Part shown: in pieces, positions 5,055 to 64,000 of the stretch
Layout of the letters: the number at the start of each line of letters is the position of its first letter
How positions within the stretch are numbered: position 1 is the stretch's first letter
Source: Cylindrodendrum hubeiense
Lineage: Eukaryota; Ascomycota; Sordariomycetes; Hypocreales; Nectriaceae
DNA length: 64,000 nt
Assembly: GCA_014621425.1 (NCBI GenBank)
Contig: JAANBB010000070.1
Location: 62,001 to 126,000, forward strand
Direction: 5' to 3'
The notes under the pieces: model-generated
Database searches by the model: none
The model's input: the letters and a program-made list of their open reading frames with translations, nothing else
What the model was told of the DNA's origin: nothing
Program-made: the position numbers and the translations under genes

Positions 5055-7523
5055 TCAAAGCCATTTATTCATCCTCTTCTTCATCAAAGCAGTTTCTCTC
5101 TTTAATTCCGGCGAAATTGGTTCTGTGGTTGGTTCAACTTCAGAGTCTGGCTTTACGTTGGACTTCAGAATATTTCCAAAGAAATCGACGTCTCCGTGGC
5201 CGACGGTTTTTAGCTCATCCACTGTATCGTAGGGTCCGGTGAGATGTTTCTCATCACGGTTAGGAGGTTTTTCGTCTTCGTCCAGAAGTCTTTCGACTTC
5301 GTCCTCACTTATGTCTGTTTGGTCTAGTCAGGAAATGGGCCCGGCATGCTACTCGACAATCTAATCTCACCTAAGACCTGTGATCCCAAATGCCTTCTGC
5401 ATATTTCCAGTCCATTTTCCAAAGTGCTCAGTTGTCTTTTCGCCGTTTCACGAGCTGCGCGACTCTCATCCGTTTCACCGGCAATTTGATTTACCTTGGC
5501 CTCAGACATCATAGCGATAGTAAAAGGCTCAAGAATGTTACCGAGCTCAGAGATCAGGATGTTCTCAATCACTTCGATGGAGACATCGTCAATAAAACGC
5601 TTCAGAGCAATCTGTGATTGTTGTCTATGAGGCTTAAGTTCAACCAAAACCGTTTGAATGGGAACTCACATCATAATATGCCACTACATAATCAAGTGCT
5701 GAAGCAGCATTTTGGTGGCTCATGTCCGTTTCAATGAGTTTCAAGAGCTGGTTGTGTAGACTCCCAACATCCACAACTGTGGATACCGGTGTGCCAATCT
5801 TCCGAGGAGTATCGCCAAAGAAACTAATCATCATATGGTCTATAGATGATTTCTGTCTCTCCAATCGAACTCTATTGACTGTTTCAGTGAAGGAACCATT
5901 ATAGGTGATCGGATGGAATTCTTGATGCTGCTTGAGAAGTCCTGCCGTCTTTTCTTTGAGAGATACGTGGAAAGCGTCAAGCTTAGGCTCCACTACAATT
6001 TCCATCATCCTATTAACCACCGATGGGTCAGAGACGTGAGTGGTCAAATGTTTGAGAAACTCTCGAGCAGCACTCCAAACTTTGTTCACATGAATTCTTG
6101 TGATCTCTGCCCAAGGAGATGACTGCTCCTTGAACAAGTCAGACACAATCATGGGATTGAATAATCCAGGGAGCTCTCGGCCACGACTCCGTTCCATCAA
6201 CTTCATGATTTTGTCAACAAATTCTTCTCGGGTAAAAGGTTCGGCGCCTGTATTCTTGTTGACTTTCTTGGGGCTGAGTGCTATCTCGTAACGATGACCG
6301 CCACTACCAAGCTCTGTTGCGAACTCGTGAGAAAGATTTTGAACCACAGCACGAAGGCGTTTCTGATAGCCGGACGGAGACATGGCATCTCCAAAAAATG
6401 GATCGATGTACGTGCCATCAATGGCAGACTTGATCAAAGACTGCAAGGAATGGCTGACTTGAAACAAATACAGCTTCTGATCTTCCAATGAGGTTCGAGG
6501 TGGGCCCAGTTTGGCCAATTGCTCTCGGCAATGCTCAGACTTAGAGCGGATTTCTTCTATCAAAGTTGGCAGTGCAGCTGCAATTTGATTGAAAAGTAAT
6601 TTGCTCAGTCTCTCCCGCAAGGTCTTAACCCCCAACGTGGAGTGAGACAGGCTAGCCCACGCGCCATGGGAAAAGAACTGGGCCTCTTGCTCATCACGTT
6701 GCAGCAAGTTCAATGGATCATCCTCGGAGTCGGCGTTTCTTAGGACATGCCAGCCAATTCGGAACTCTATTTCGTGGTTTTCGGCCAAGGAAATATATGA
6801 GTCTTCACTCTTAGAACCTTGGCGAAGGGTATCGGGTTTAGTGATAACCCCGAGGGTACGGGAACCTTTTGGGTCGGATACCCGGGCTAGCTTCAAGACA
6901 ACTTGATTGGCAAACTCATACTTCGCAGAGACCACGGCCAGGATTATAGTCCTTGGGTTTTTCATGTAGCCTTGAACGACTTCCCTGATTAGATCAACAT
7001 CGAACTCAGACTGGTGTTTGTTCTCGGAATGGATGAGGCCAGGCAAGTCGACCATGGTAAGACGAGGACGGTTGGGCCCGCTAATCTCGATGCGAAGTAG
7101 ATCCCTCGAAAATTATTTTCCCGAGTTCATTATTCCCATCGCAGCTTTTGCTTTCTCAATCACAGTAGGCAGATCTTCGAAAGACTCTAATTCCTCGTTG
7201 AATTCGGTGAGAATTGCCTTCTCAGACTCGTTATGGGAGTGGTGTGGGGTGATTGAGACCTTGGCGCCAGAGACAGCTGCCTTGCGGAGAACGAGTTCCG
7301 TTGGGAAACGGGTGCCTAGAGTGCTTTTTACTGGAAAAGGCACCCCAGATATTGCAGCAAGGGCGGCGCTTTTTCCGGAGGATTGGTCACCGCAGACAAT
7401 GATTTGAGGAAGTGAGACGTGACGACTGATGCCGTGTGAACGGAGCGAGTCGACCGTATCACAAAGTTGAAGTTGCTCTGATGAGCAAAGGCCATCAAGG
7501 CGAGTATATTTGAGTTGCGTCAT
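5055..7523 (-). pseudogene. Dynamin-like GTPase with one in-frame stop
   Basis: All parts of a fungal dynamin-superfamily GTPase are present in order: P-loop CGDQSSGKS, switch region LGTRFPTE, VDLPGLIHSE, GVITKPD, the middle domain and a C-terminal GTPase effector domain (ALKRFIDDVSIEVIENIL). Such proteins form helical GTPase assemblies that remodel membranes or act as Mx-like factors. The start is ATG 7523. Introns fit at 5612-5669 and 5315-5370, giving an acidic tail ending at 5055. The frame is interrupted once: TAA at 7113-7115 sits between MGIMNSGK and FSRDLLRIEISGP, inside the conserved G domain. No GT..AG intron removes it and keeps frame. The gene is therefore a recent pseudogene, a nonsense allele or a sequencing error. 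A TATAAAAGG element lies about 90 bases upstream of the ATG. Confidence 0.75.
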
Positions 7524-7611
7524 GACAATGATGATTCATGGGAAGAATAAATGTGTATCATGAGGAGAATCCCAGTGATGACGAACGTCAGGGCTCTGAG
7601 AGCTGTAGCCA

Positions 7612-7620
7612 CCTTTTATA
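7612..7620 (-). promoter_or_regulatory. TATA box of the dynamin-like gene
   Basis: TATAAAAGG on the minus strand, about 90 bases upstream of the ATG at 7523. Spacing and sequence fit a TATA element. Confidence 0.45.
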
Positions 7621-8269
7621 CCGAGAGCCGCCTACAGTACTTATCCGAAATTACAACTATCATTGATGCCTAAACTCATGTTTCTTTTCTCCCATGCACC
7701 TAATTCCCCGCTAATAATCTCAGTCGCGTGGCTTGCTACTTACTGTACGTAACTATGCAGTCACCAGCGGGCGTATCTCAGCGCGGCAGTCGGAAAACCC
7801 AACGAGTGACTAGGGTTTGAACTGCCGAACGGAGGCCCCATGGGATCCAAGTCGATAATGATTGCTTTTTATGATCTAATTTGTGATACTGCAGTTTCGA
7901 CTCGGTGAAGAGCACAGTGTTCTGAAAGGCTACGCATGTCGTATGCAAAGACTGTTCATGTGCAATGAGGGGGCTGGAATTGTCACGCTTGGAGAAGTTC
8001 GTGTAAGTTGGTCAATTGTACATCTATTTCTTGCGATACGCCGCCCAGAGAGATTCACGCCTGGTTACAAGCCATATAGCCGAGTGAACAATGCGAAACA
8101 GGCAGCATGCAGATTCAGGCTCCGACTATTTGTCCCGCTGGCCAACGCTGTAGGCCAGCCAAATGCATGATGTATCGAAGTATGTGCAACGTCCAATAAA
8201 AAATAGAACAGAAACATGGACGGCCTCCCGCAGATGCTTGGTGTGCTTCTTGCAGGAGTTTGGTCATCG

Positions 8270-8340
8270 GTGGGCCTCCCACAGGTTCCCGGTGGGCCTC
8301 CCGCAGGATTCTGGTGGGCCTCCTGCAGCAGGTTGGTGTG
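8270..8340. repeat. Short imperfect tandem repeat, about 21-23 bp unit
   Basis: Three to four consecutive units begin GGTGGGCCTCC followed by a variable (C/T)(A/G)CAG-rich part. A related GGCCTCCCGCAGATGCTTGG copy sits just upstream at about 8221. The repeat is in intergenic DNA with no coding role seen. Confidence 0.5.
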
Positions 8341-8608
8341 CTGCCTCATCCCCAGATACCATGCACCCTCCATCTCTGATCTTCGGTAGATGCCTATTGT
8401 ATGTTTGGCTTAGAGACGACACTGTCGATGTGCATCACCAATAGTAAAAGGCAATAGATGCATTCATTGGAATATATACAATAAACTCATTGTGAAAATA
8501 TGGTCATCAATCGCTACCAGTCGTAAGTACTTGCATGTATCATTTTTCCTTCATATACATTTCGTCAAATCGGCAGAACGGTTGCTACCCACGGACCTGA
8601 GGCGGCCG

Positions 8609-9981
8609 TTACGTCTGAGGGGGTGTGGCTGACTTTTCCTTCTCGGCCGGCATTGAGTTTCCAGGTCTTCGTCCATAAACAACGTAACTATAGATAACGT
8701 CAGCTCTGCAACATGGTCAAATATGGCCAAGGCGCACTTACAATGGTACCCAGCTGTGCATATTTGGGTTGGAGACCTCTTTTCGAGCCCTGGCTAACAA
8801 GACCTGGAAGTATGTCGGATCGCCGCCCAGGATCTGCTCGTAGCCCCGCGCAAACACGTTGGCGATGCTCTCGCGGAAATGGTGCAGCTCAAAGGCGCCT
8901 ATCTTCTTCAGATACGGATCGCGGGGCCAGGGATTCGTGGGGATCTTGAGTATACGCTCAACGACGTCCTCGAAACCCGCCTCCTCCAGGTAGCGTTTCC
9001 ACTTCGTGGGCTCCAAGCCCGACAGATTGACACGCGCCGACATTTCCAAGTATATGCGCCCCATTTCCATATAAGCTGAATCTTGTGGGAGCGTGTCGTC
9101 ATCTGATCGGAAGTCGGGGACGGATCCGCCCAGCTGTAGGTAGGCGCCGGGTTTGAGGTGATCGTGCGCCTGGCGGATAAGGCGGGGCCAGTCTTGGATG
9201 GCCATGATAAGTTCGCGGCCGTGGATAAAGTCGAAGCTAGATTCTCCCCAGAGCCACTCGTCCTCGATATCGTCGAGCTAAGCATGATGTCAGCGGGTGT
9301 TGGGCTATCAGAGAGAGNAGAAGACGCAGCGACCACCTACCTCGAAGGTAAGGTTGCTAGGGATCATGGTTGGCTGGACCGGAGCCTTGTCGACTCCAAT
9401 AACCTTGGCCGATGGGTATTGGTCGGCAATATCCATGGCCCAGATGCCCGAGCCCGTCCCTAGATCCAAGATCTTCTGCGGGTGATCGATTATGGGAGCC
9501 AAATGAAGCTCGTCGTTCATGAGCATGGTGAACTTGCAATGCTGCAGGTCGTTTCTCTCCATCTGGTGGGCCGGATTTCTGATTAACACATCTCGATCGC
9601 ACTATCGTAATGAGAGAGTATACCCACTTCCAAGTCGTCGCTCGGGATCCAGGCTTTGGTGATGCCATACACGCCATAGGTCCGCCCATTCTCGATAACG
9701 CCGCGCCTGACGTCAGAGGCGATTGAAGACAGGTAGCTCGTATTTGTCGACCCGGAATATGCTTCGTCGTCGTCAGTCCAGGTATCAGGCTCGATATGGC
9801 TTGACGGCGCGGTCGAAGATGCCGCCGACGCGATGATGGGTTCCTCGGGCTCCGTGTTTTCGGGGTCGTGCGCGTCCCGGTCAGAGGTAACGCCACCAGA
9901 TTGTCCCTCAGCAGTCCCTGGGCCCGGGGCCGCCTGGTCATGTAACCCTGTGGGCTTCGGGGGTGAAGACGGCGCCGACAT
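8609..9981 (-). CDS. LaeA-like SAM-dependent methyltransferase (402 aa)
   Basis: Four exons: 9981-9628, 9562-9341, 9277-8742 and 8705-8609, all joining in frame. The protein has a disordered acidic N-terminus, then NGRTYGVYG, the SAM-binding motif ILDLGTGSGIWAMDIA, VIGVDKAP, a DDIEDEWLWGESSFDFIHGREL block, and a C-terminal YVVYGRRP supplied only by the last exon. This order is typical of the LaeA/methyltransferase-23 family in Pezizomycotina, whose best known member controls secondary metabolism. I chose ATG 9981 (MSAPSSPPKP); an in-frame ATG at 10074 would add 31 residues. The only ambiguous base in the window (9318) falls in the second intron. It shares a 490-base promoter with the O-methyltransferase. 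The exact substrate cannot be told. Confidence 0.85.
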
Positions 9982-39377: not shown

Positions 39378-41400
39378 ATGGCAAGCAGGATACAGTAAAA
39401 TAATTTTTAGTCTAAGAATATTGCCGTGGGCTATGAATCCCTTCTCTGGACTGACTTCTCCTCGTCTCAAAAGTTGGTTTCGAATATGATCTTATATAAA
39501 CACGCATGCAAGAGGGTCATCTGAGAACCTAGTGACTTAGCCTGCTCAAGTTGTGTTATGACCTTTTGCCACTTTATATCTGACTCCTGGTGATTACACT
39601 TTCTACAATGGGTCAAAAGGACCTGGGCTTCACTGGAGAACGGCGGGGAGACAAAGGAGGAGGCTGCAAAGCATGCACGGGATTGCGTGCTGACCGAAAT
39701 GGGCTGAGGCTCTTTCTTTGGTAATTTTCGGGGGGTTCCAGCGAGGTCCCTGGATCGAATCGCGTTTCTGATTCACTCACCTCTCAGGCATCTCGTTCGG
39801 TTATTACTGCCACGTATTCACCTTTACTGTGTGGTTTGCGTTCAAGCTGTGGCCCGCTCCTCTGCGGTGGATCTCTGCAGTGGGCAATCCGGGGTGGATC
39901 GGCACGCTAGCGGGTCTAAAATCTGTCTTGCCACTGTTACGACTGTAAAAATGATGCATCTGATAGAATCGATAATGAGTGTACAGCAAGTTATCTTATC
40001 TGTCGGCGTGAGATGTGGGCAGCAGCGTCGTTGAATGACCTGGGCTTGTTGACTTGGGGAGTCCCCGCGGTGGCACTGTTACGTGTTACCGTTACGGCTT
40101 CGTCCTCCGTAAGCGACAGGCTTCATAAGGCGGCCGGTGCACCGACTTGATTGCTACTGTACAAGTACAATTGTGATCAAGACCCAATCTTTTGCCATGT
40201 GGCGTAATGGTCTAGGTACCCGCTCCACAACTGCCGCACGCTCACGTAGCTGAGCACACTGCCGCTGCGTCAGCCGTCTCCCGTGTCTCAGTCCAATCTC
40301 CTCTATCAGCTCAGCCACGAAATCCTCCAACCCCTGCGCGCGTTGTGGAGCTCCCTCCCCCGTGCCATGGCGGCCTGGAACCTCGGGGTGCCCATCTGTA
40401 CTGTATCTGCAATGAGCACCCGGTCAATTGTAGAGTATGCACTTACGCGCACCTCCTGGTGGTGCTCTGTGCTCGTTGAGTTCGTCGACTCCTCCTCGTG
40501 ATAGTTACCTCCGATTCGGTAACCTCCAGCCTAGTAGTCGCCGAATACGGCCTTGAACTCGTCGGAGCCTTGTCGGTATAGAATCTTGAATGCTTCCTCT
40601 GAGAACTGAGGCGGGTGGGAAAATGCAACTGAGCCGGCACGGTAACTCGTGAGGACAGATACTTTGGTTCAACTCTGTTTTCCATGACATCTTTATCATA
40701 GTGCACTGAGACACTAGCTTCAAGAAAGAACAAGTCAACGCCAACGCCGACGCCAACGCTGAGCCGCAGTTGCCATCGTATGCAGTGGAGACGATGAGCG
40801 ACGAGCTGAGGGAATCTAGATCGAAAGCTGACTGCTGGACAAACGGATTGTCACCACCCTTGGCCTTATCCGTGGCGGCTGACCGAAAGAATATGCCCAA
40901 CCGCAGAACACGGGCCTGCCAGGGAAGCCGGATCGGTGACTATGCCATGGCCTACTGGGCCACACAGGGGACAAGCGGGTCGAGGGTGTCGGCCGTCAGA
41001 AGGGCAAGCCGAATCACGTTGGCGATTCCAGATTTGGTTATTGTTGCTCATGCGTATAATAAATGCACTCGAGGGCTGGAGTCTAAGAGGGGCGGGAAGG
41101 ACCAGGATTCAAATGCATAGTGAAGGCGGAATCGCTCGGTCTAGAACGACACATGATCCAGAACTATTTGAGACTATTTGAGACTATTGATATGCAAGCC
41201 TACATCTCGTTTATGCACTCAGGACCCACTAAGGAAAATGATTTCAGCTCTGTACATGTCATCCACACATTCAAGCTTCCGTTGGGCGTTATAATAAAAG
41301 GGTGAGTGGCCAAGATTGCTCTATATATTAGCTTATCTGTCACTTGCTATCGTGTCTGTCTCGAACACACTGCCCCATCCCCACACTCAATCTTTCCATC
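39378..41400. other. 2-kb intergenic region without visible gene
   Basis: Short frames on both strands lack family patterns. The region has a hexamer run (ACGCC(A/G), about 40739-40760) and a GAGACTATTT tandem at about 41165-41190. A CTATATATTA stretch 70-80 bases before the RelA/SpoT ATG is a plausible TATA element. Confidence 0.5.
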
Positions 41401-42852
41401 ATGTCCAAAGCATCCGAAAGCAACCCCATCAAGGGAATCACTTCAGCCCTTGTCTCACAGAATTCCGCTGCGCACGGTAGTGATACCATTCCTTTCTCCA
41501 GACCCCAGCCAGACACAAACTCTTCTGCACTAGGGAATGATCCCATCAACGAGTTTATCGCCGAATATGAACGCGACTTTCGCCTTTACGATCAAATTGC
41601 CAAGATTGCCGAGGAAGAGTGCCGTCAAGCTCTTAACGAAAGTGGCATCCCCGCCGTCATCACATCACGCGCCAAGAATCCTGCGAGACTCCATGAAAAG
41701 GTTAAGGAGAGAAACAAAACAGAGAATTACACGAGCCCAGACGCCATTCGGACGGATTTGGCCGACCTTTCTGGCGTACGAATTGCATTGTACTTCCCGA
41801 GTCAAGCACCTCAAGTGATCGAGCTCATCGACAGTCTTTTCACTTGCCATCAGATCAAGGACCTCTCAGACAAGCCAGCAAAGGCCTCTTGGTTGCCCTT
41901 TACAAAGTCTCCAAAAAAAAGCGGATACTGTGCTACTCATTTGCGCGTTGTGCTTGGCACTGCAAGATTCCCACCCACGGACGCGTGGTGTGGGCACTCA
42001 ACGGTTGAAATCCAGGTGGCTTCACTTCTCATGCACTCCTGGTCGGAGGTCAACCACGATTTGGATTACAAGGCTCTCAGTGGAGACGTATCAGACAGTC
42101 AACGTCAGCTTCTCACTAGTCTCAATAAACTTGTGATAGATGGCGAGGGTATCCTTGAAAAGCTCAAAAAGTCACTGGAGGATAGGGTCGCAAAAGAGGA
42201 TAGGAGTTTCGTTACCCCCTTTGAGCTAAGCACGTTTTTGCAAAAGGACTGGAAATCCGAGTCCTTAAAACCTGTCGAGTACCGGATGGGTACAATCAAA
42301 ACGTTGTTTTACGTTATCAAACACCTCGGGATCAACAATCCAAAGTCCTTGACAGAAAGGCTGAAACCTCGCGTCCCGAACCCACAAACAGTCAGCCACG
42401 CACTCAAAAACTCCAGTGCTCAATCGATCCTCGACTATATCTTTCTCTATCAGGGGAAAGGTTACCAATTGGACGGTTCATTCGAGAATCCATTCCTCCG
42501 CGATGATTTGAATGCTAGACTCAAGGACTCGAAGCTGGACCCCATCGGAAAACTCGGGATCCTAGCAGATATTTTGGCATATGCCTACGAAGAACTCCCT
42601 CTCAAGAAATCTCAAAATTGTATCCCATATCCTCCCTTTCCAAAACGTACTGGTAAGAAGCTTCAAAAATCCGGTGTATTCATAAACGGGCGGCTAATAA
42701 TTCAACATCTAGATGATCTTCAGAGCGACATTAGAACCTCGTGGGAGTGGTTTGCAACAAGTGACGATGCTCGCCTTCGTATTGCACTTGGTATGGGACG
42801 GGCAAAGAAAGGTGAAGATTTTCGACAGGAACAGGAGAAAAAGTTTAAATAA
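41401..42852 (+). CDS. RelA/SpoT-domain protein (483 aa)
   Basis: Single exon from ATG 41401. Residues 90-225 form a RelA_SpoT (PF04607) nucleotidyltransferase domain: RAKNPARLHEKVKERN, DLADLSGVRIALY with the metal-binding Asp (D122) and R127, GYCATHLRV, and VEIQVASLLMHSWSEVNHDLDYK with E203, W214, E216, H219, Y223 and K224. These are the residues used by (p)ppGpp synthetases to move pyrophosphate from ATP to GDP/GTP. The usual GYR is GYC here. No HD hydrolase, TGS or ACT domain is present, so this is a small-alarmone-synthetase type with a fungal C-terminal helical extension (residues 240-483). Cytosolic by lack of a leader. Activity is inferred. Confidence 0.85.
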   Translation: MSKASESNPIKGITSALVSQNSAAHGSDTIPFSRPQPDTNSSALGNDPINEFIAEYERDFRLYDQIAKIAEEECRQALNESGIPAVITSRAKNPARLHEKVKERNKTENYTSPDAIRTDLADLSGVRIALYFPSQAPQVIELIDSLFTCHQIKDLSDKPAKASWLPFTKSPKKSGYCATHLRVVLGTARFPPTDAWCGHSTVEIQVASLLMHSWSEVNHDLDYKALSGDVSDSQRQLLTSLNKLVIDGEGILEKLKKSLEDRVAKEDRSFVTPFELSTFLQKDWKSESLKPVEYRMGTIKTLFYVIKHLGINNPKSLTERLKPRVPNPQTVSHALKNSSAQSILDYIFLYQGKGYQLDGSFENPFLRDDLNARLKDSKLDPIGKLGILADILAYAYEELPLKKSQNCIPYPPFPKRTGKKLQKSGVFINGRLIIQHLDDLQSDIRTSWEWFATSDDARLRIALGMGRAKKGEDFRQEQEKKFK

Positions 42853-45416: not shown

Positions 45417-45890
45417 TTATTGATCTTCCTCAACTCTACGTTGCGTCACCCGACTTACGAGCCAACTGGTGAAGGCAGATGCCGACAAGCTCCCTTTACT
45501 CCGGGTGCCATGTTGTTGTTCTGTGAGTAACACCACAACACGTGTCATGCATGTATGGCGGGCAATTTCACGGAGTAGACCACTCAAGAATTTCAAATCA
45601 CAGAGGGTTAGGTCGCAAGGATAGACAAGATTCGTATAGTGGACATATACATAAACCAGGACATACCTGTTGAGGCCTGGCAGATTCTTTATCCTCTTTT
45701 CTCCCAAACATTTAATGCCCAGTAACTCCTCCTCGCACTCATCTTCTGAACTGACAGGGTCATCGGATTCGCACTCGATTTCATCTTCGCGCCACAGTAG
45801 CGAAACATTAAACACCTCGTCCTCGGAATCATTCTCGGCCGGCCCACCGCTGTCATGTATGCCGTCTCCCCCGAGTGTTGTAGTCATGTT
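45417..45890 (-). pseudogene. Truncated copy of the gasdermin-like gene 3' end
   Basis: The minus strand reads MTTTLGGDG, AENDSEDEVFN and ESDDPVSSEDE, nearly matching the C-terminal tail of the protein at 57276-58595 (ATLGGDG, ENDSEDDLFN, ESDDPVSSEDE). At DNA level similarity runs from about 45680 to 45897 against about 57232-57473. It stops abruptly after CAATCTC, so the rest of the gene is missing. The copy reads on in frame through GIKCLGEKRIKNL, which is out of frame in the other locus. It has no upstream coding region, so it is a fragment, not a working gene. Confidence 0.75.
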
Positions 45891-46319
45891 GCCCTCAATC
45901 TCTAGTATACTCTATACATAGTCTATTAGAGGCTGGGAAGGCCGGGGATTAGTATTAACGTCTTATATTAGTTCTAACTCCTTCCAATCCCAATATAGAT
46001 AGCTAGTTAGTTCTGAGTGAAGGATACATACTCGGAACGGTGTAACCGAATGGAACTTAGATCTGTCACAAGATTACATTCTACAGTCACGTGGAAAGGA
46101 ATCAACCATATTATTTGATGGGTGAATACTTGACTTATTCTACCTTAGAAACAGGGATTTGAATGATGTTGCGAGAGATGAAAACCTTCACCTTGTCATC
46201 CTCACTTACGGAGGGACGACATAAGAATCAGGGCAGAGACTGCAAACAAGAAGCCTCAAGATAACTTGCACGACCCCCCTCAATGAAGAGCAAAATTTGA
46301 TCCACGGAAACTCCCAGCT
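45891..46319. other. AT-rich intergenic region
   Basis: About 430 bases between the gene fragment and the 3' end of the monooxygenase gene. It is AT-rich, possibly decayed repeat DNA, with no recognisable element. Confidence 0.4.
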
Positions 46320-56777: not shown

Positions 56778-57275
56778 TGAATTCTAAACAATATGAGACG
56801 GCAGAGAGCCCAATAGACAGTAAATTAAGCCAAATATTTGAGCGCAATCAAATATTATTATGACGCAAAAGCCACGATCCGTTGTGTGTCTATTGTTAAG
56901 GTAGTCATGTGCTGAATACAGGTGGTATGCCACGAGGAAACCCTGTCGAAGAAGTAAAGGCAAAGAGAGATCCGAGCTCAAAGCAATTGAGTTAATAATC
57001 ACAATAATATAATTGTTACTATCGTACAACTAAAACGGAAGCTGTTGTTGCACATACGGCGATCGCCACTAACTCTGATCTAGACAATTCAACCCAGTCA
57101 CTACACAGGATACAGGACTCAGCCCCAAACCTCATTCTACTCCATTCACTCCAGAACATAAAAGAAAAGTAGTATAGTTGTTATTTAGTTTCCTAATCAT
57201 TGAGGGATCGGCTTATATCCATAGTCTAATAGATTCCTTATTCTCTTTTCTCCTAAATATTTAATACCCAATATC
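56778..57275. other. Intergenic tail-to-tail region
   Basis: About 500 AT-rich bases. The right end (57232 onward) is similar to 45680 onward, part of the duplicated 3' end of the gasdermin-like gene. Confidence 0.5.
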
Positions 57276-58595
57276 TCATAATTCACTACCCTCTTCACTC
57301 TCATCTTCTGAACTGACAGGGTCATCAGATTCACGCTCGATTCCATCCTCACACCCCAGTAGCGAAATATTAAATAAATCGTCCTCGGAATCATTCTCGG
57401 AATCATTCTCGGCCGGCTCACCGCTGCTATCTGTGCCGTCTCCCCCCAGGGTTGCGGCCATGTTGCCCTCAATCTCCTCGTCTCCGATGCGCCACATCTC
57501 CTCCGGGCCGATGAATACCTGGGCGTCATCGCTTGCGTTGTTGTGGACGAGCTTGTAATTGGAAAACGGAATCTTGCGCCCGCCCTGCCTCGATTCGCTA
57601 TACAAGGGGAGATAGCTGCAGGCGATGAGGTACTCGCCCTCGTAGGCGCCCGACGTGCCGACATCGTGCGTGGCTGAGTAGGCAGCTCCGAGCTTTAACT
57701 CGACGTACGCGGAGAGGTCGGCAGGTCCGGTGCCGGCCTCGAGCTGTGCCGACGTGTACTTGGCCTTGTTCGTGTTCTTGGTCAAGTCGACACAGGTGAT
57801 GAAGCTGGTGATGATGCCCAGCTTACCGTCACTTTGTTTGCTCAGAAGCTCCAGAACTTGACTCCGGTACTTAACCTGGCATGCCTTCTGCAAAGCTTTT
57901 TGTTTGGCCTTTTGTTTGGCTTGTTCAGCGACAGGATCCGGAACCGACGCCGGGGCCGGGGCCGGAGCTGGAGCTGAGGGCCGCGAGCCGCCGGGGTTGA
58001 GATAGCCGAATAAGGAGGAGACGGTGGATAAAATTCCGCCCTGTCCGCTCTTGCTCTGGGGTGGCGGGGCTGCATCCGCTTGAGCTCCCTCCTCTCGCGG
58101 GCGATGAGCCTCGCCAGCGTCGTTACCGGGTCCGTCTTCAACATGCTGGATATTGTTCGGGGCAGGGCCGGCATTGCCATGAGCGACATGGTCGCCGTCG
58201 CCGTCGCCGTCCGTCTTGTCGCGCAGTAGGTCTTCAATCATGGTGCGGGCATTGTACATGCTGACACGACGGAACCCTGCCGCCGCCAAGTTTGCTGTCT
58301 GAGAGCCTCCTTTCTCGAGCGAGAGCGCCGTGAGCCTCTGGAACTTGGTGCTGGCCTTGCCGCTCTTTGACCTCTTTTCGACCCTGGAAAAGTCCTTGCA
58401 CACCACAAAAGTAGGCGGGTAGAGGTCATCGACGGCGTCTTGTGGCTTGATAGAGCGGCGGGGTCTATAGGCGCCGCGCAGAGGCCTGCGAGGATTCTCC
58501 ACGGCTAGCCCCAACAGCGTGTTGAATAGGTCATCGTCAACGGCTTCAGGCTCCTCGAGGAGGAAGTACGGCTTCTTCGTCACCTTCTGTTTCAT
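57276..58595 (-). CDS. Gasdermin-like pore-forming protein (439 aa)
   Basis: Single exon from ATG 58595 (MKQKVTKK). The N-terminal region (PYFLLEEPE at 9, then GAYRPRRSIKPQDAVDDLYPP and FSRVEKRSKSGKASTKFQRLTALSLEKG, to about 125) and residues 255-365 (LGIITSFITCVDL, DLSAYVELKLGAAYS, EYLIACSYLP) resemble the two halves of a fungal gasdermin pore-forming domain. Between them is a Pro/Ala-rich linker (205-222) and a Lys/Gln helix (225-240). The tail (385-439) is very acidic. Fungal gasdermins are activated by protease removal of a C-terminal inhibitory part and then pierce the plasma membrane. The divergent CHAT protease gene and nearby NB-ARC gene support this reading. The length exceeds the typical 250-280 aa because of the linker and tail. 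Similarity is by eye; a fold search is needed. Confidence 0.6.
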   Translation of the reverse strand: MKQKVTKKPYFLLEEPEAVDDDLFNTLLGLAVENPRRPLRGAYRPRRSIKPQDAVDDLYPPTFVVCKDFSRVEKRSKSGKASTKFQRLTALSLEKGGSQTANLAAAGFRRVSMYNARTMIEDLLRDKTDGDGDGDHVAHGNAGPAPNNIQHVEDGPGNDAGEAHRPREEGAQADAAPPPQSKSGQGGILSTVSSLFGYLNPGGSRPSAPAPAPAPASVPDPVAEQAKQKAKQKALQKACQVKYRSQVLELLSKQSDGKLGIITSFITCVDLTKNTNKAKYTSAQLEAGTGPADLSAYVELKLGAAYSATHDVGTSGAYEGEYLIACSYLPLYSESRQGGRKIPFSNYKLVHNNASDDAQVFIGPEEMWRIGDEEIEGNMAATLGGDGTDSSGEPAENDSENDSEDDLFNISLLGCEDGIERESDDPVSSEDESEEGSEL

Positions 58596-59054
58596 CTTTG
58601 CTCGCAAACGATTACGATTGCAATTTATCGGTACTACCGGAGCAGATCAAGAGTCGAGGGAGACCAGGCTCCGAGAGCCTTAAATGTGCCGGAGGCCACG
58701 GGTCGGCTGCCTCTGAATTCGCCGGGCCCCACGTCATGGACGCTGGAAATGGGCCGCAACGGGTCGCAAACTCGACTTGCAGGCCTAGAAGCGGCGAGGC
58801 TTTTCAGCTTCGGAGCCTCGTCTGCCTGTAAGTGGAGCAGACGGCGGCTGTGCCCTCCACGAACATGATCATGCGGTCCCTGGTACAGAGACAGCCCTGG
58901 CAGCTGAACAGCTGCACTGTTCTTGCATCCCCCCTGTAAATGACGAAACCAGGCTGGGGGCGTTGCTGTAATGTTCCAACCACGTTGATTCCGATGCTAC
59001 AAACTTCGACGTCGTGGTATATCGACTTGGAGTGCGCGGCCGCGACCAACAGTC
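58596..59054. promoter_or_regulatory. Bidirectional promoter, gasdermin-like and CHAT genes
   Basis: 459 bases between divergent ATGs. The short distance suggests co-expression of the effector and its presumed protease. No TATA box is obvious. Confidence 0.5.
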
Positions 59055-61542
59055 ATGCCGCCCGCCGTCATCAAGATCAACGTGCAGGCCAGAAGCAGCC
59101 TCCCTCCGAACGAGAACCGCCGCGGGTGGAACGTCGACATCAAGGAAACGCATGCGAACGAACCCTATGCGAACTTGCGCAAGGAAACCCAGCTCCACGA
59201 TCCCTTCCCCATTACCGAATACTTCCGATATGAGTCCGCGGTGCAGCGGTCGGGACTTCCGAGTCCCCAACGCGATAGGTCGCCTTCACCCGGCAATCTT
59301 CCGTCGTTGCGCGAGGCATCGATTCATTCAGCATCGGCCAGCGGCATTCTCCACGATGCAAACAGCAGTGCCGACATGCCGGCCGATATCGAACGAAGCG
59401 CATCGCACCAGGGCGGCGCTGTATCCTCCGTCGAGGAGTACCGGCAAACTATGCACCAGACCCTAGGCCTGGATACAGTGTCGCTGGACGACTCCATCGT
59501 CAAGATATCTATAAGCGAGGACCTGAACTCGAAGGAACATGAGAGCTCGCACTACTACAGCATCCACAGTCTGCTCTGGGAGCTTCTCGAGCACGACGAC
59601 AACGACGTCCATCTGGCCGCCGACGCTCCGCTGCGAGTGATGCGCCCAGGCGTCCAGGTCACGCGCTGGATCACCGGCATCCCCAACCCTAAGCATCTCC
59701 CCGCCAGCCTGCGCTGCGTCGAAAAGCCCATCCGCCTGCTGGTGGTGGTGGCTCGAAGCCTGCGGCGGCCTCACGACCAGCACTTCCGCGATGTCCAGAG
59801 CGTCGTGGTTGATACCCTGTTCACCGTGGCCAAGTACCTCCGTCAGCAGGGGCGACATGACCGGCTTTCCGTCGACGTCGTGCGGCCGGGGACGCTGGCC
59901 GAGTTCAAAGCGCACTTGCAGCGTGGAAAGATATATGACATGGTCCATTTTGATGTCCATGGCTGGGTACAGATGTAAGTAGGCCTGTCCGGTACCGTCA
60001 CCGTCTCGTCCATGATCCCAACACCATACAATAATCAATTGCTCAAGGAACAATGTGCTAACAATCCTTCCCTCTTCAAGGCCCGAAGGAATACCCAAAC
60101 TATTGTTTGCCCTCCCCAACGGGTACAAAGCACCAATGAGTGACATGCTGGAGCTTGATGATAAGACGCTTGACTTCGTCCCAGTCGACGAGGTAGCCAC
60201 GCTGCTGAAGCAACACAACATCACCGCGGTAACCCTCAGTGCCTGCCTGTCGTCCTACGCGCAAGGCAAGCCGCTCAGCAACATGTGTCGCGCCTTTGCC
60301 CGCTGCGGCGTCTCCGCAATCACAGGCATGAGCTTCACCGTCAAGTCGCACACAGCCAAGGTCTACTTTGCCGCCTTCTACCCGGCCCTGGTGCTCGCAA
60401 ACTGCAACTTCCGTACCGCCGCCGTCTACGGCCGGCGATGGGTCCAGGTGCAACACCAGAGAGAAGCGCTAAAGCGGAGGAAAGAGCGAGAGCGAGAGCG
60501 GGAGCAGCGTGAGCAGCGCCGGCAACGAAGGCAACGGCGGAGCGGCAGCGGCAGCAATGCTACAAGCAATGTACCTCGAATCATCATCCCCAACGACGAG
60601 GATCAAATCTGGCCGGCTGTGACGACTTACTTTGCTACGGATCACATTGATCGGACAAACAGCTTAAGGCTTGGAGCCGAAATCTTCGAGGGCGACCGGT
60701 TAGAGCAAAACATATTGAGGCTGATGGCCGTTGCCGTGGGTGCGCTAGCCGATCCCCGGTTTCTTTTCTTGGTCACGACAACTCTTTCTCTCCTCGTCAC
60801 TTTCTTCTTCGGCTGGACCTCTGGTATCTTGACATTCTTCGCCGTGATACTCTCTTGGAGGCAGCTTAGCAAGGTGGCCATATCAGCAAGGATGCCAGAC
60901 GCCGATTTGTCTGGGTTCGAAGCCTTCAGGGAGAAGCACGAGATGCCTGCTTCTCATGGTATCAAGCATTCTATTGGCCTGATGGTGCTCGAGGATCGCC
61001 TCAAAATTTGCAAGCAGCTCTTTATTCAGGTCCTCCCGCCTGGGAATAATGCGCGTCTGCTCGCCCTGAAGGACTTGTGGCTGACGACTAATTTTGCCGA
61101 CGCTGTTGAGATCGCACCCGCGGCGCTGTTCAAACGGCAATCGCTCCCCTTTTTCTATTTCCATCTAACACGACACATGCTGTCACGCTGGTACGTGACT
61201 TGGAAGTCATGGCGGAACAGTAATGACAAGGCGGCAGGGCGTGATCCAGAGGCCGCGTCCCCTGGAGACATCAATTCGCCGCCGCGCACCATATTGATCA
61301 TAGAAGGTTTCGAGTCCATCGTCAAGCATGGGAGGCCAATTTACCCAGACGCCCTTGCCCGCATGAACACCTATATCAAGGCCGTCGAAGCTCGTCACCC
61401 TGCAGGCCAGTACCTCATTATCATGAGTCGTGTTGAAGTTGGTTGGTGGACGCCTCAATGGAACGTCAATGAGTACCCGTGGACCGAAGCTGAGTTGTTC
61501 CTCGCCCGTCCGGGGTTCACCTTTATCAAAGCTCGAGATTAA
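59055..61542 (+). CDS. CHAT-domain (caspase-like) protease with membrane segments (793 aa)
   Basis: Two exons, 59055-59974 and 60081-61542, joined as VQ-MPEG. The N-terminal 150 residues are disordered. The CHAT (C14-like) core follows: IRLLVVVARSLRRP (about 226), a substrate-side helix, IYDMVHFDVHG with the catalytic-type His302, then after the intron LLFALPNGY and the strand ITAVTLSACLSSYA with Cys362. A GVSAITGMSFTV block completes the fold. After it come a strongly basic coiled region (437-460), two hydrophobic segments (about 534-566, FLFLVTTTLSLLVTFFFGW and GILTFFAVILSW) and a C-terminal domain without a known match (RTILIIEGFESIV). The divergent gasdermin-like gene is the probable substrate. 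Unlike many fungal CHAT proteins, no NB-ARC, NACHT or TPR region is fused. Confidence 0.8.
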
Positions 61543-61861
61543 TAGCCGCTTGGGAGGAGGCACAACATGTCTGGGTGCGTGCCTGCTTATTGAAGTGAAC
61601 ATCGCAGATACGGGTAAGATACAGATCATACTAGTGACATTTTCTTCTACGTATGAGGGGCATAGATACACTGTAATGTGCGGTCATTCCGCAGAATAGT
61701 TGTACATGTACAGCTATAGATTAGATAAGTGTTCAATAATGGTCCTCATGATACTCTCAGAAACGAAAATAAAATTAATACAAACTCAAACCTATCGTAC
61801 ATTCTCCTTTCTGTTCTATTCCAGTTTCACATACCCCATTACGAATTGTTGAGCAGCCTTC
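61543..61861. other. Intergenic tail-to-tail region
   Basis: 319 AT-rich bases between the convergent CHAT and NB-ARC/TPR genes. Nothing recognised. Confidence 0.5.
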
Positions 61862-64000
61862 TCACTCTTCCTCACACCAGGTATCATCGCTAGCATACTC
61901 ATCGTCGTAATCATCTTCATCGTCCTCGTCCTCGTCAGCATAAAAGCCTCCAACGCCGAGTGTGGTTCGCGTGACTAGCAGGGATTCCATGTCAAAGTCA
62001 TCGACGTCCCCATTTCCATCCAACAAGCGATTGATTCGTCGCGTCACCGCGTCCGGGTACAATCCAGGAAAGTCTTCAACCTCCTTCTTGAGTTTCTTCA
62101 GCTGTTGCTCAGCCTCATGTCGCTTTCCTAGCGTGAGCAGGCAGCGCACAAAGTCCTCGCGGATGCTAAAGACGGCAGGGTGGCGAGCGCCGAGACTCTC
62201 GGTGGCCGCTTCGAGACACTCGGAGTATTTGGCTTCAGCCTCCTCCGTCCGACCTTCCAGGTCCCACGTCGCCGCGATCTTGGAACCGCAGAGCACCGTG
62301 CTCGGATGCTTATCACCTAGTCGCTGCTTCTGGCAGTCGTACACAAAGTTAAGAAGTCGACGGGCGTCCCCCAGCTCACCCTCCTTCAGCTTGATGTTTG
62401 ACAGTGCCTCCATGATGCTTAGCGTTGCCGGGTGTGACGGTCCCCGGGTGTCTTCAAGTGAGACCAACATGCGTTGAAGAAGGGCACTAGCCGCAGACTG
62501 GTTACCGTCCTTGGCTAGATACGTGGCCAGCTCAGTAACAGACTCAGTGACCTGTCTCCGGCTCGCGTCGTCGCCAAATTTGTCCTCAATTGCCAGCACC
62601 GTTGACAGCTTATCTATAGCAGTGCTGAATTTACCTTGAGAGGCCTGCATCGATGCAAACTGGCGATAGGCCGCCAAGCGTCCGTCAAAAGACATGCCTT
62701 TGTACTCTGTAGAAAATATGTTCTCGTATGCGGCCTCGGCGTCAGGATAGTTCCCAGAGTGCTGGTAGGCTCGAGCACAGTCTAGCTGCAAGGAAAAGTC
62801 CTTTTCGGTCCCGGGAGTTTGTCTTTGTCTCTCAAGCTGGTAAAGGGTCCCCGCAGTCGCGTACTCGGCGTGGCCCTCACAGATGGATGCCAGGTCAGCC
62901 CACTTCTTATCGTCCTTGGACGAAAGCATTTTCGACACATCCTGGTCTTTGAATATACCCAGGCATCGTCGCAATGTTGCCTTGATGTTTTGTACGACTT
63001 GTGCCTGGGAATCCCAGGCAAATATCAAGTCAGATCGATTCTCAGTTGTGCCGATGCTATCTCCCAAAATTTCCCAGGCTCGCTCGGCGGCCCTTTTGGC
63101 CGTCACCTGGAACAGGTCTGGGCTCAAACGGGAAAGCAACTGAGGGCCGATATCAAGGAGAGAATTCGATGGGTAGAGGTGAGATTGTTCATGTTTGAGT
63201 CCTGGAATTGTCAATCTTGTAATTTCAACTCCCTCCAGTTCGGCTTCGAGCAGAGACAGAGGTATATGTGGACAGTTCTTGTCGGCAAGAAACTGAGTAA
63301 GAGCCAACACTCTCTGCTCCCAAGCAGGAGCCGTATTCCACCATATTTTAATGTGTTGTGTGAAATCCATTGATCCAGACGTTGGCTCAAATGGAATTCT
63401 CTGCTCTGTCACCACCTCTTGGGCTCCCGAAGTGGTAAAACGTATAACCTTTGATCCATAACTGGGAACTTTATCACTAGTTGATATAACGATGTGGCCG
63501 TGTCCGCTTGCAGTAGAAGGCAGAGTTCTCAAGAGCTCTCTCCAAGATTGGCGCCTCGACCTGCTTTGATCAAATTGGCCAGTCCAGGTTGTTGGAGCGG
63601 GATATCCTAATTCGGGTGACAGACCATCTAGAACCAAGAGCCACTTTCTTTCGTGGGGGCCAGTAAGCCATTCTGACACTGCTTGGACAACCGTGGAAAA
63701 GTCTTGGTCGTCGAGGTCCTTGTCAACATCCAAGCCAACTTCTTCGAGCCCAAGCAGACTCGCGGCGGACACAGGTGATTCGGAGCAGTGAGAGACGATT
63801 CGGCGAGCAATTCCCTGGAAGCTTAGCTCCAGGGACTTGCGGCTGGCTGCATTAACCCAAAGAATCGATCCATAGGTGTTCTGTTTCCGGGCGATGTACC
63901 GCAAGGCCAAGTCCGTTTTCCCACACCCAGGATGGCCTTGAAGAATAGCAACTGGCCAGGCGTACCTATCGTGTGTTTGTAAGGGTGTTTCCAGAATATC
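61862..64000 (-). CDS. NB-ARC/TPR STAND protein, N-terminus outside window
   Basis: The minus-strand frame is open without intron from the right edge to TGA 61862, 712 codons. Next to the edge is a Walker A motif, GHPGCGKTDLALRYIA (63914-63937 encodes GHPGCGKT), then GSILWVNAASRKSLELSFQGIA and Walker B KWLLVLDGLSPE, an NB-ARC type NTPase. A winged-helix-like stretch is followed by TPR repeats of the TPR_10/12 type in the last 350 residues (YQHSGNYPDAEAAYENIF, RQFASMQASQGKFSTAIDKL, LGARHPAVFSIREDFVRCLL). The C-terminus is acidic (DEDEDDEDDYDDEY). STAND proteins are signal-sensing switches in fungal innate immunity and incompatibility. The N-terminal effector domain is not visible. Position beside the CHAT/gasdermin-like pair suggests it is the sensor of that system. 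Confidence 0.88.
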   Translation of the reverse strand, partial: DILETPLQTHDRYAWPVAILQGHPGCGKTDLALRYIARKQNTYGSILWVNAASRKSLELSFQGIARRIVSHCSESPVSAASLLGLEEVGLDVDKDLDDQDFSTVVQAVSEWLTGPHERKWLLVLDGLSPELGYPAPTTWTGQFDQSRSRRQSWRELLRTLPSTASGHGHIVISTSDKVPSYGSKVIRFTTSGAQEVVTEQRIPFEPTSGSMDFTQHIKIWWNTAPAWEQRVLALTQFLADKNCPHIPLSLLEAELEGVEITRLTIPGLKHEQSHLYPSNSLLDIGPQLLSRLSPDLFQVTAKRAAERAWEILGDSIGTTENRSDLIFAWDSQAQVVQNIKATLRRCLGIFKDQDVSKMLSSKDDKKWADLASICEGHAEYATAGTLYQLERQRQTPGTEKDFSLQLDCARAYQHSGNYPDAEAAYENIFSTEYKGMSFDGRLAAYRQFASMQASQGKFSTAIDKLSTVLAIEDKFGDDASRRQVTESVTELATYLAKDGNQSAASALLQRMLVSLEDTRGPSHPATLSIMEALSNIKLKEGELGDARRLLNFVYDCQKQRLGDKHPSTVLCGSKIAATWDLEGRTEEAEAKYSECLEAATESLGARHPAVFSIREDFVRCLLTLGKRHEAEQQLKKLKKEVEDFPGLYPDAVTRRINRLLDGNGDVDDFDMESLLVTRTTLGVGGFYADEDEDDEDDYDDEYASDDTWCEEE

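Follow-up and report, generated by a model that had tools for sequence, protein, structure and literature searches.

Do a putative pore-forming protein, a CHAT protease and a receptor-like NTPase that lie side by side in a fungal genome form one cell-death system, and in which order might they act? We addressed this question at the end of a 64,000-nucleotide stretch of the 47.5-Mb Cylindrodendrum hubeiense genome (Nectriaceae), i.e., C668:62001-126000, hereafter called the window; coordinates are those of the window unless another contig is named. A first-pass annotation had proposed a three-component relay of a gasdermin-like protein, a caspase-like CHAT protease and a STAND (signal transduction ATPase with numerous domains) protein with tetratricopeptide repeats (TPRs). 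On balance, we favor a reading in which the first gene, termed gene A, encodes a divergent gasdermin-like pore former, the neighboring CHAT protease is its activator, and a NOD-like receptor (NLR) with a SesB-like hydrolase domain is an anciently linked partner. The full three-protein relay, from NLR to CHAT to gasdermin, is put forward as a hypothesis.

All three genes proved to be real and correctly positioned, as judged from open frames, a splice model and the continuation of the contig. The locus order is gene A (57276-58595, minus strand), the CHAT gene (59055-61542, plus strand), the receptor gene (61862 to ~65086, minus strand) and a TPR-CHAT gene (plus strand). Gene A and the CHAT gene are transcribed divergently, as had been proposed, and lie 459 bp apart, while the CHAT and receptor genes are convergent and separated by ~320 bp. 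The features are as follows:

57276-58595, minus strand: gene A, an intact single open frame of 439 amino acids (aa) encoding a putative divergent gasdermin-like protein.
57279-57494, minus strand: acidic C-terminal tail of gene A (residues 368-439, net charge -24).
57870-58217, minus strand: variable linker insert of gene A (residues ~127-242), from the family alignment.
58596-59054, unstranded: intergenic region of 459 bp between gene A and the CHAT gene, from open-frame and splice coordinates; possibly a shared promoter of the two genes.
59055-59974, plus strand: CHAT exon 1, with the predicted catalytic His302 codon at 59958-59960 (splice model, Pfam, alignment).
59975-60080, plus strand: CHAT intron, GTAAGT...AAG (splice model, deposited protein).
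60081-61542, plus strand: CHAT exon 2, with the predicted catalytic Cys362 codon at 60244-60246 and hydrophobic segments at ~60721-60849.
61862-64000, minus strand: NTPase and TPR part (712 aa) of a SesB-NB-ARC-TPR receptor of ~1,074 aa (Pfam, contig continuation).

Two protein searches (yielding 5, then 8 members) defined a gene A family of eight proteins including that of the window (alignment A3), with members from Fusarium, Apiospora, Coniochaeta and Echria. In the family layout, a variable insert of 25-116 aa separates an N-terminal block from a C-terminal one, the latter closing with [ED]YL[IV]ACSY.P. An acidic tail follows in 8/8 members (net charge -7 to -25) and is a candidate autoinhibitory segment. 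Within the genome, the only detectable gene A paralogue was a 295-aa open reading frame (ORF) on contig C62 (C62:54644-55531; BLAST E 0.19), in which the insert measures 4 aa. This ORF scored 37.1 bits against the gene A family profile, as compared with at most 4.9 bits in 2000 shuffles, and 96% against the family by hhalign.

For comparison with known pore formers, a fungal gasdermin profile of the HET-Q1/RCD-1 type was assembled from 12 rows, most of them from the C. hubeiense genome and the rest from PDB matches. It drew on 30 Peptidase_S8 loci (L039-L068; the genome has 39 S8 matches in all), each taken with 1.5-kb flanks, and on two further gasdermins, at L069 and L070. At six of the 30 S8 loci (L053, L056, L059, L063, L065 and L067), a HET-Q1/RCD-1-type gasdermin ORF was found beside a subtilisin-like protease gene. 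Two matches anchor the profile to solved structures: the L065 protein matched RCD-1-1 (8jyz, E 2.6e-6), and the best PDB match of L067 was the HET-Q1 pore (9uv9, E 0.17). At L070:1-809 (minus strand), a gasdermin-like gene runs across two overlapping frames, i.e., it either contains an intron or is broken.

By hhalign, the gene A family together with the C62 protein matched the 12-row gasdermin profile over 206 columns with a local probability of 85% (P 5.9e-6) and a global probability of 92% (P 9.3e-8). The eight-member family without C62 reached 53% locally (P 1.3e-4) and 66% globally, and the C62 protein alone 56% and 82%, respectively. The signal of the combined query grew as gasdermin rows were added, from P 0.008 with 3 rows to 1.4e-4 with 8 and 5.9e-6 with 12. 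Reversed 12-row profiles gave P values of 0.058-0.23 for the three queries (family plus C62, family, C62), and the CHAT family, used as a control, gave P 0.82. Among 247 real ORFs scored as a null, the C62 protein came seventh, right below six gasdermins (score 30.0; next 20.4). When a gasdermin hidden Markov model (HMM) was run on 2,884 ORFs, the same protein was the sole match at E<1 besides the gasdermin genes (12.3 bits, E 0.015). Taken together, these profile comparisons indicate that gene A is probably homologous to fungal gasdermins.

Several observations weigh against this assignment. The gene A protein of the window, used alone, gave no signal with the gasdermin profile (P 0.53), and it was neither among the top 20 of the 247-ORF null nor among the E<1 matches of the gasdermin HMM over the 2,884 ORFs. 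With reversed 8-row profiles the three queries gave P 0.09, 0.03 and 0.26, the value of 0.03 belonging to the main query, and both the gasdermin and the gene A profiles are shallow. In column-shuffle nulls, which used the 8-row gasdermin profile, 11 of 960 shuffles exceeded the real score when counted naively. We set these 11 aside as numerical artefacts, since they placed an impossible score of ~130 bits on 3-29 columns at the end of the template; the remaining 949 peaked at 22.2, compared with 39.7 for the real alignment. The same artefact had occurred in an earlier shuffle run (5/360 in each of three tests). There is also possible circularity: the gene A profile first drew attention to L067 through a non-significant match (4.8 and 5.7 bits, E >1), and similarity to L067, or to a profile grown from it, led to the other gasdermin rows, apart from those taken from PDB matches. 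PDB sequence searches with gene A and with alignments A1, A3 and A4 returned no gasdermin. AlphaFold2 runs on gene A with 5 and 8 sequences gave unusable models (predicted local distance difference test scores of 32.7 and 37.2), and Foldseek returned 0 matches at E<=0.001 with the second of these, a result that is uninformative from such a model.

Family databases were likewise silent on gene A, with nothing above the Pfam cut-off, no match in NCBIfam and, in particular, no match to the Pfam gasdermin family PF04598. PF04598 had 0 matches genome-wide, despite the HET-Q1/RCD-1-type genes present there, and L067 had no Pfam family at all; its absence from gene A is uninformative because the genome's own gasdermins also escape Pfam. 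Sub-threshold matches of gene A or its family in searches of PDB, Pfam, NCBIfam and PADLOC were dismissed as noise (Pox_M2, 0.0057; SATB1, 0.12; SMAD4, 0.8-1.4), as was a PDC-M38B match (0.0046) seen in only one of five family members.

These results bear on the alternative that gene A is an adaptor, an inhibitor or some other CHAT substrate of different fold, with the profile match reflecting generic alpha/beta patterning. Such an explanation draws on the lack of PDB, structural or above-cut-off Pfam support, on the negative single-sequence comparison and on the one reversed control at P 0.03. We nevertheless regard it as unlikely, given that the collinear profile match outperforms the reversed, CHAT and real-ORF controls and the 949 non-artefact shuffles, and that the silence of Pfam extends to the genome's own gasdermins. 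The initial description of the 439-aa protein as gasdermin-like is supported by remote homology in profile-profile comparison; Pfam, PDB sequence searches and AlphaFold2 did not confirm it.

We next consider the candidate activator. The CHAT gene encodes a protein of 793 aa, and its splice model is identical to deposited G7Z17_g4730 of C. hubeiense (100% over 100%). The protein has a Pfam CHAT match (3.6e-9) followed by two hydrophobic stretches (residues 521-539 and 545-563), in agreement with the earlier description of a CHAT protease with its own membrane segments. His302 and Cys362, the predicted catalytic pair, were invariant in 12/12 aligned CHAT homologues (alignment A2, comprising 12 of 13 matches; P0018, of 570 aa and 26% coverage, was omitted), and at least one hydrophobic segment was found at the same threshold in 8 of the other 11. 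The C-terminal domain had no Pfam match, Pfam saw no NTPase there in the 12 members, and the 793-aa protein showed no TPR, ankyrin or WD40 repeats. The closest in-genome CHAT paralogue, on contig C690, lies directly upstream of a P-loop NTPase ORF (sub-cut-off AAA_16). The C-terminal domain of the window protein (~60967-61539) is collinear with this ORF but lacks its Walker A motif. The similarity was not significant (hhalign P 0.0065; hmmsearch rank 2/1002, one shuffle scoring higher) and is suggestive only of a degenerate or vestigial STAND module.

Fungal gasdermin genes had been expected to neighbor protease genes, and the adjacency of gene A and the CHAT gene is conserved in two other genera. 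In Fusarium lateritium, the two homologues carry the consecutive tags ACHAPT_011934 and ACHAPT_011933 on one 186,289-bp contig, and in Echria macrotheca the tags QBC47DRAFT_395870 and QBC47DRAFT_395869 on one 155,889-bp contig. The homologue search reaches mainly close relatives, and pairing was judged from contig and locus tag. By these measures, only 2 of 7 other gene A homologues could be paired, as could 2 of the 12 CHAT homologues outside the window, which weighs against the favored reading, as does the fact that CHAT-family paralogues on C690 and C787 had no A-like neighbor in the stretches examined. In F. lateritium and E. macrotheca, the comparison covered the A-CHAT pair of the suggested trio. 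The C787 paralogue lies near a HET-domain gene (L036:2905-4896 and 6796-9075), with no gasdermin-like ORF in the stretch examined.

The start of the receptor gene lies outside the window, ~1,086 bases beyond its end, with an N-terminal hydrolase encoded at L003:501-1587. Its designation as a STAND NTPase with TPRs is well founded for the repeats (TPR_12, 4.2e-15), whereas the NTPase families NPHP3_N and AAA_16 were matched below Pfam cut-offs only; the NTPase part is, however, the best match of a Pfam-positive NB-ARC domain on C62. The N-terminus, behind a hydrophobic stretch, is an alpha/beta-hydrolase (Abhydrolase_6, 3e-7; PGAP1, 1.9e-5) with a CHSLGG motif, and the name SesB is based on its resemblance to the PGAP1/Abhydrolase N-termini listed in PMC9815663. 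Since the N-terminus carries this hydrolase and no protease domain, the receptor is not of the protease-NLR fusion (Q2L NLR) type, and protease and STAND protein are indeed separate polypeptides. The accompanying statement that such proteases are commonly fused to the NLR is not borne out by the review text consulted, which gives NLR-fused proteases as a small subset (PMC12881547); there is thus nothing unusual about a separate protease.

Evidence on the receptor's link to gene A came from C62, where the A-like ORF adjoins a hydrolase-NB-ARC-TPR gene. In its NTPase/TPR part, the window receptor matched this gene better than any other in the genome; when the C62 NB-ARC was used as query, the window receptor was best in turn (53.1 vs. 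31.4 bits), making the two reciprocal best matches in the NTPase part. In the hydrolase part, the C62 receptor came second among non-self matches to the window receptor, behind one on C83 (51.8 vs. 72.9 bits); the C62 hydrolase was recognized from its motif and from BLAST similarity to the window receptor rather than from Pfam. Linkage of an A-like gene with a SesB-NLR is thus seen at two loci that are old paralogues. Within C62:44000-63999, i.e., 8-10 kb on each side of the A-like ORF, neither CHAT nor S8 was matched, and none of the ORFs of at least 140 aa was an obvious protease.

In a two-gene alternative, gene A and CHAT are a complete pair and the SesB-NLR and TPR-CHAT genes are independent members of an immune-type island. 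Such an arrangement would fit the A-CHAT adjacency in two other genera, the NLR's own effector domain, the abundance of related genes in the genome (at least 25 CHAT and at least 17 NB-ARC matches, with a TPR-CHAT gene following the NLR) and reviews in which fungal gasdermin clusters are, in the text available, mostly two-gene (PMC10197012). A chance neighborhood would not predict, however, that the only A-like paralogue adjoins the reciprocal-best NTPase paralogue of the NLR, and we rate the two-gene explanation as a serious contender that is nonetheless probably not correct.

The TPR-CHAT gene itself (L003:3174-6193, i.e., C668:128673-131692, plus strand) lies ~1.6 kb past the SesB-NLR, and because it adjoins that gene the immune-type island extends past the window. 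Its proximity, together with the report that a TPR-bearing CHAT protease activates a gasdermin in Podospora (PMC12881547, as far as accessible), raises the alternative that it, rather than the 793-aa CHAT protein, is the activator. This seems very improbable, as the gene is one of many CHAT genes in the genome and the adjacency in other genera involves the 793-aa CHAT family.

In the mechanism that we favor, gene A would be a gasdermin-like pore former kept inactive by its acidic C-terminal tail. Upon a signal, the CHAT cysteine protease, as cognate activator, would remove the tail, and the N-terminal part would then oligomerize in the plasma membrane and cause cell death in defense or allorecognition. 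The SesB-NB-ARC-TPR receptor may act upstream as a sensor or in parallel as a membrane-lipid effector. By analogy with HET-Q1/HET-Q2 and the Podospora TPR-CHAT/gasdermin pair, tail inhibition and CHAT cleavage are the most likely steps, while the NLR step, for which the basis is linkage, is hypothetical. Because the NLR has a SesB-like effector domain and the C62 locus has no CHAT match, the order of action may differ from that of the relay. A further scheme starts from C62, where the A-like protein is paired with a SesB-NB-ARC-TPR receptor and no protease was seen close by: this gasdermin branch would be controlled by SesB-hydrolase NLRs instead of protease-NLRs. The hydrolase would license the gasdermin, e.g., by lipid removal or membrane remodeling, and CHAT would be a later or lineage-specific addition; we consider this scheme improbable.

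Two further observations concern the surrounding DNA. A decayed copy of the gene A 3' end and its downstream sequence is present at 45682-45902 (minus strand), 11.5 kb away and 77% identical to 57231-57476, and points to gene turnover at the locus. At 41344-42852 (plus strand) lies a gene for a RelA/SpoT-domain protein (Pfam 7.5e-14); this domain is also listed among fungal NLR N-termini in PMC9815663.

Among known systems, the closest are HET-Q1/HET-Q2 and the Q2-like clusters of Podospora anserina, where a protease gene likewise adjoins the gene for a gasdermin-like protein whose C-terminal tail is short. Unlike HET-Q1, gene A is beyond direct sequence detection here and has an internal insert of 25-116 aa. 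Its CHAT partner also differs, with a membrane-type segment, a C-terminal domain lacking a Pfam match, and no TPR, ankyrin or WD40 repeats found. The PNT1/HELLP/SBP systems are three-gene fungal cell-death clusters that combine a HeLo-like pore former, an NLR and a SesB-like lipase through amyloid-motif signaling. The present locus likewise unites a pore former with an NLR and a SesB-like hydrolase; it differs in its gasdermin-like pore former, in the fusion of hydrolase and NLR into one protein and in its additional CHAT protease. RCD-1 of Neurospora crassa shows profile-level homology with the gene A family, but has no inhibitory C-terminus and acts by heteroallelic pairing, with no proteolytic step observed according to the accessible text of PMC11760362. 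The receptor, with its N-terminal alpha/beta-hydrolase, NTPase and repeats, resembles the ascomycete NLRs with SesB-like N-termini, which are given as 13-14% of ascomycete NLRs (PMC9815663).

Gasdermin/CHAT pairs are already known: reviews place a protease gene in the cluster of about 80% of fungal gasdermins, and CHAT proteases are put at about 17-19% of the partner proteases (PMC10197012, PMC10989679). What sets this locus apart is a branch missed by direct searches, with its internal insert, a CHAT protease with a membrane segment and a SesB-NLR partner; no gasdermin linked to a SesB-NLR was found in the accessible portions of the open-licence literature searched. These findings suggest that fungal gasdermins reach further than family models or direct searches can show, and that two types of controller, a CHAT protease and an NLR with a SesB-type hydrolase, are tied to at least one divergent branch. 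Were the NLR to drive the system, the locus would represent a natural counterpart in fungi of the animal NLR-caspase-gasdermin order, with the three functions on separate polypeptides.

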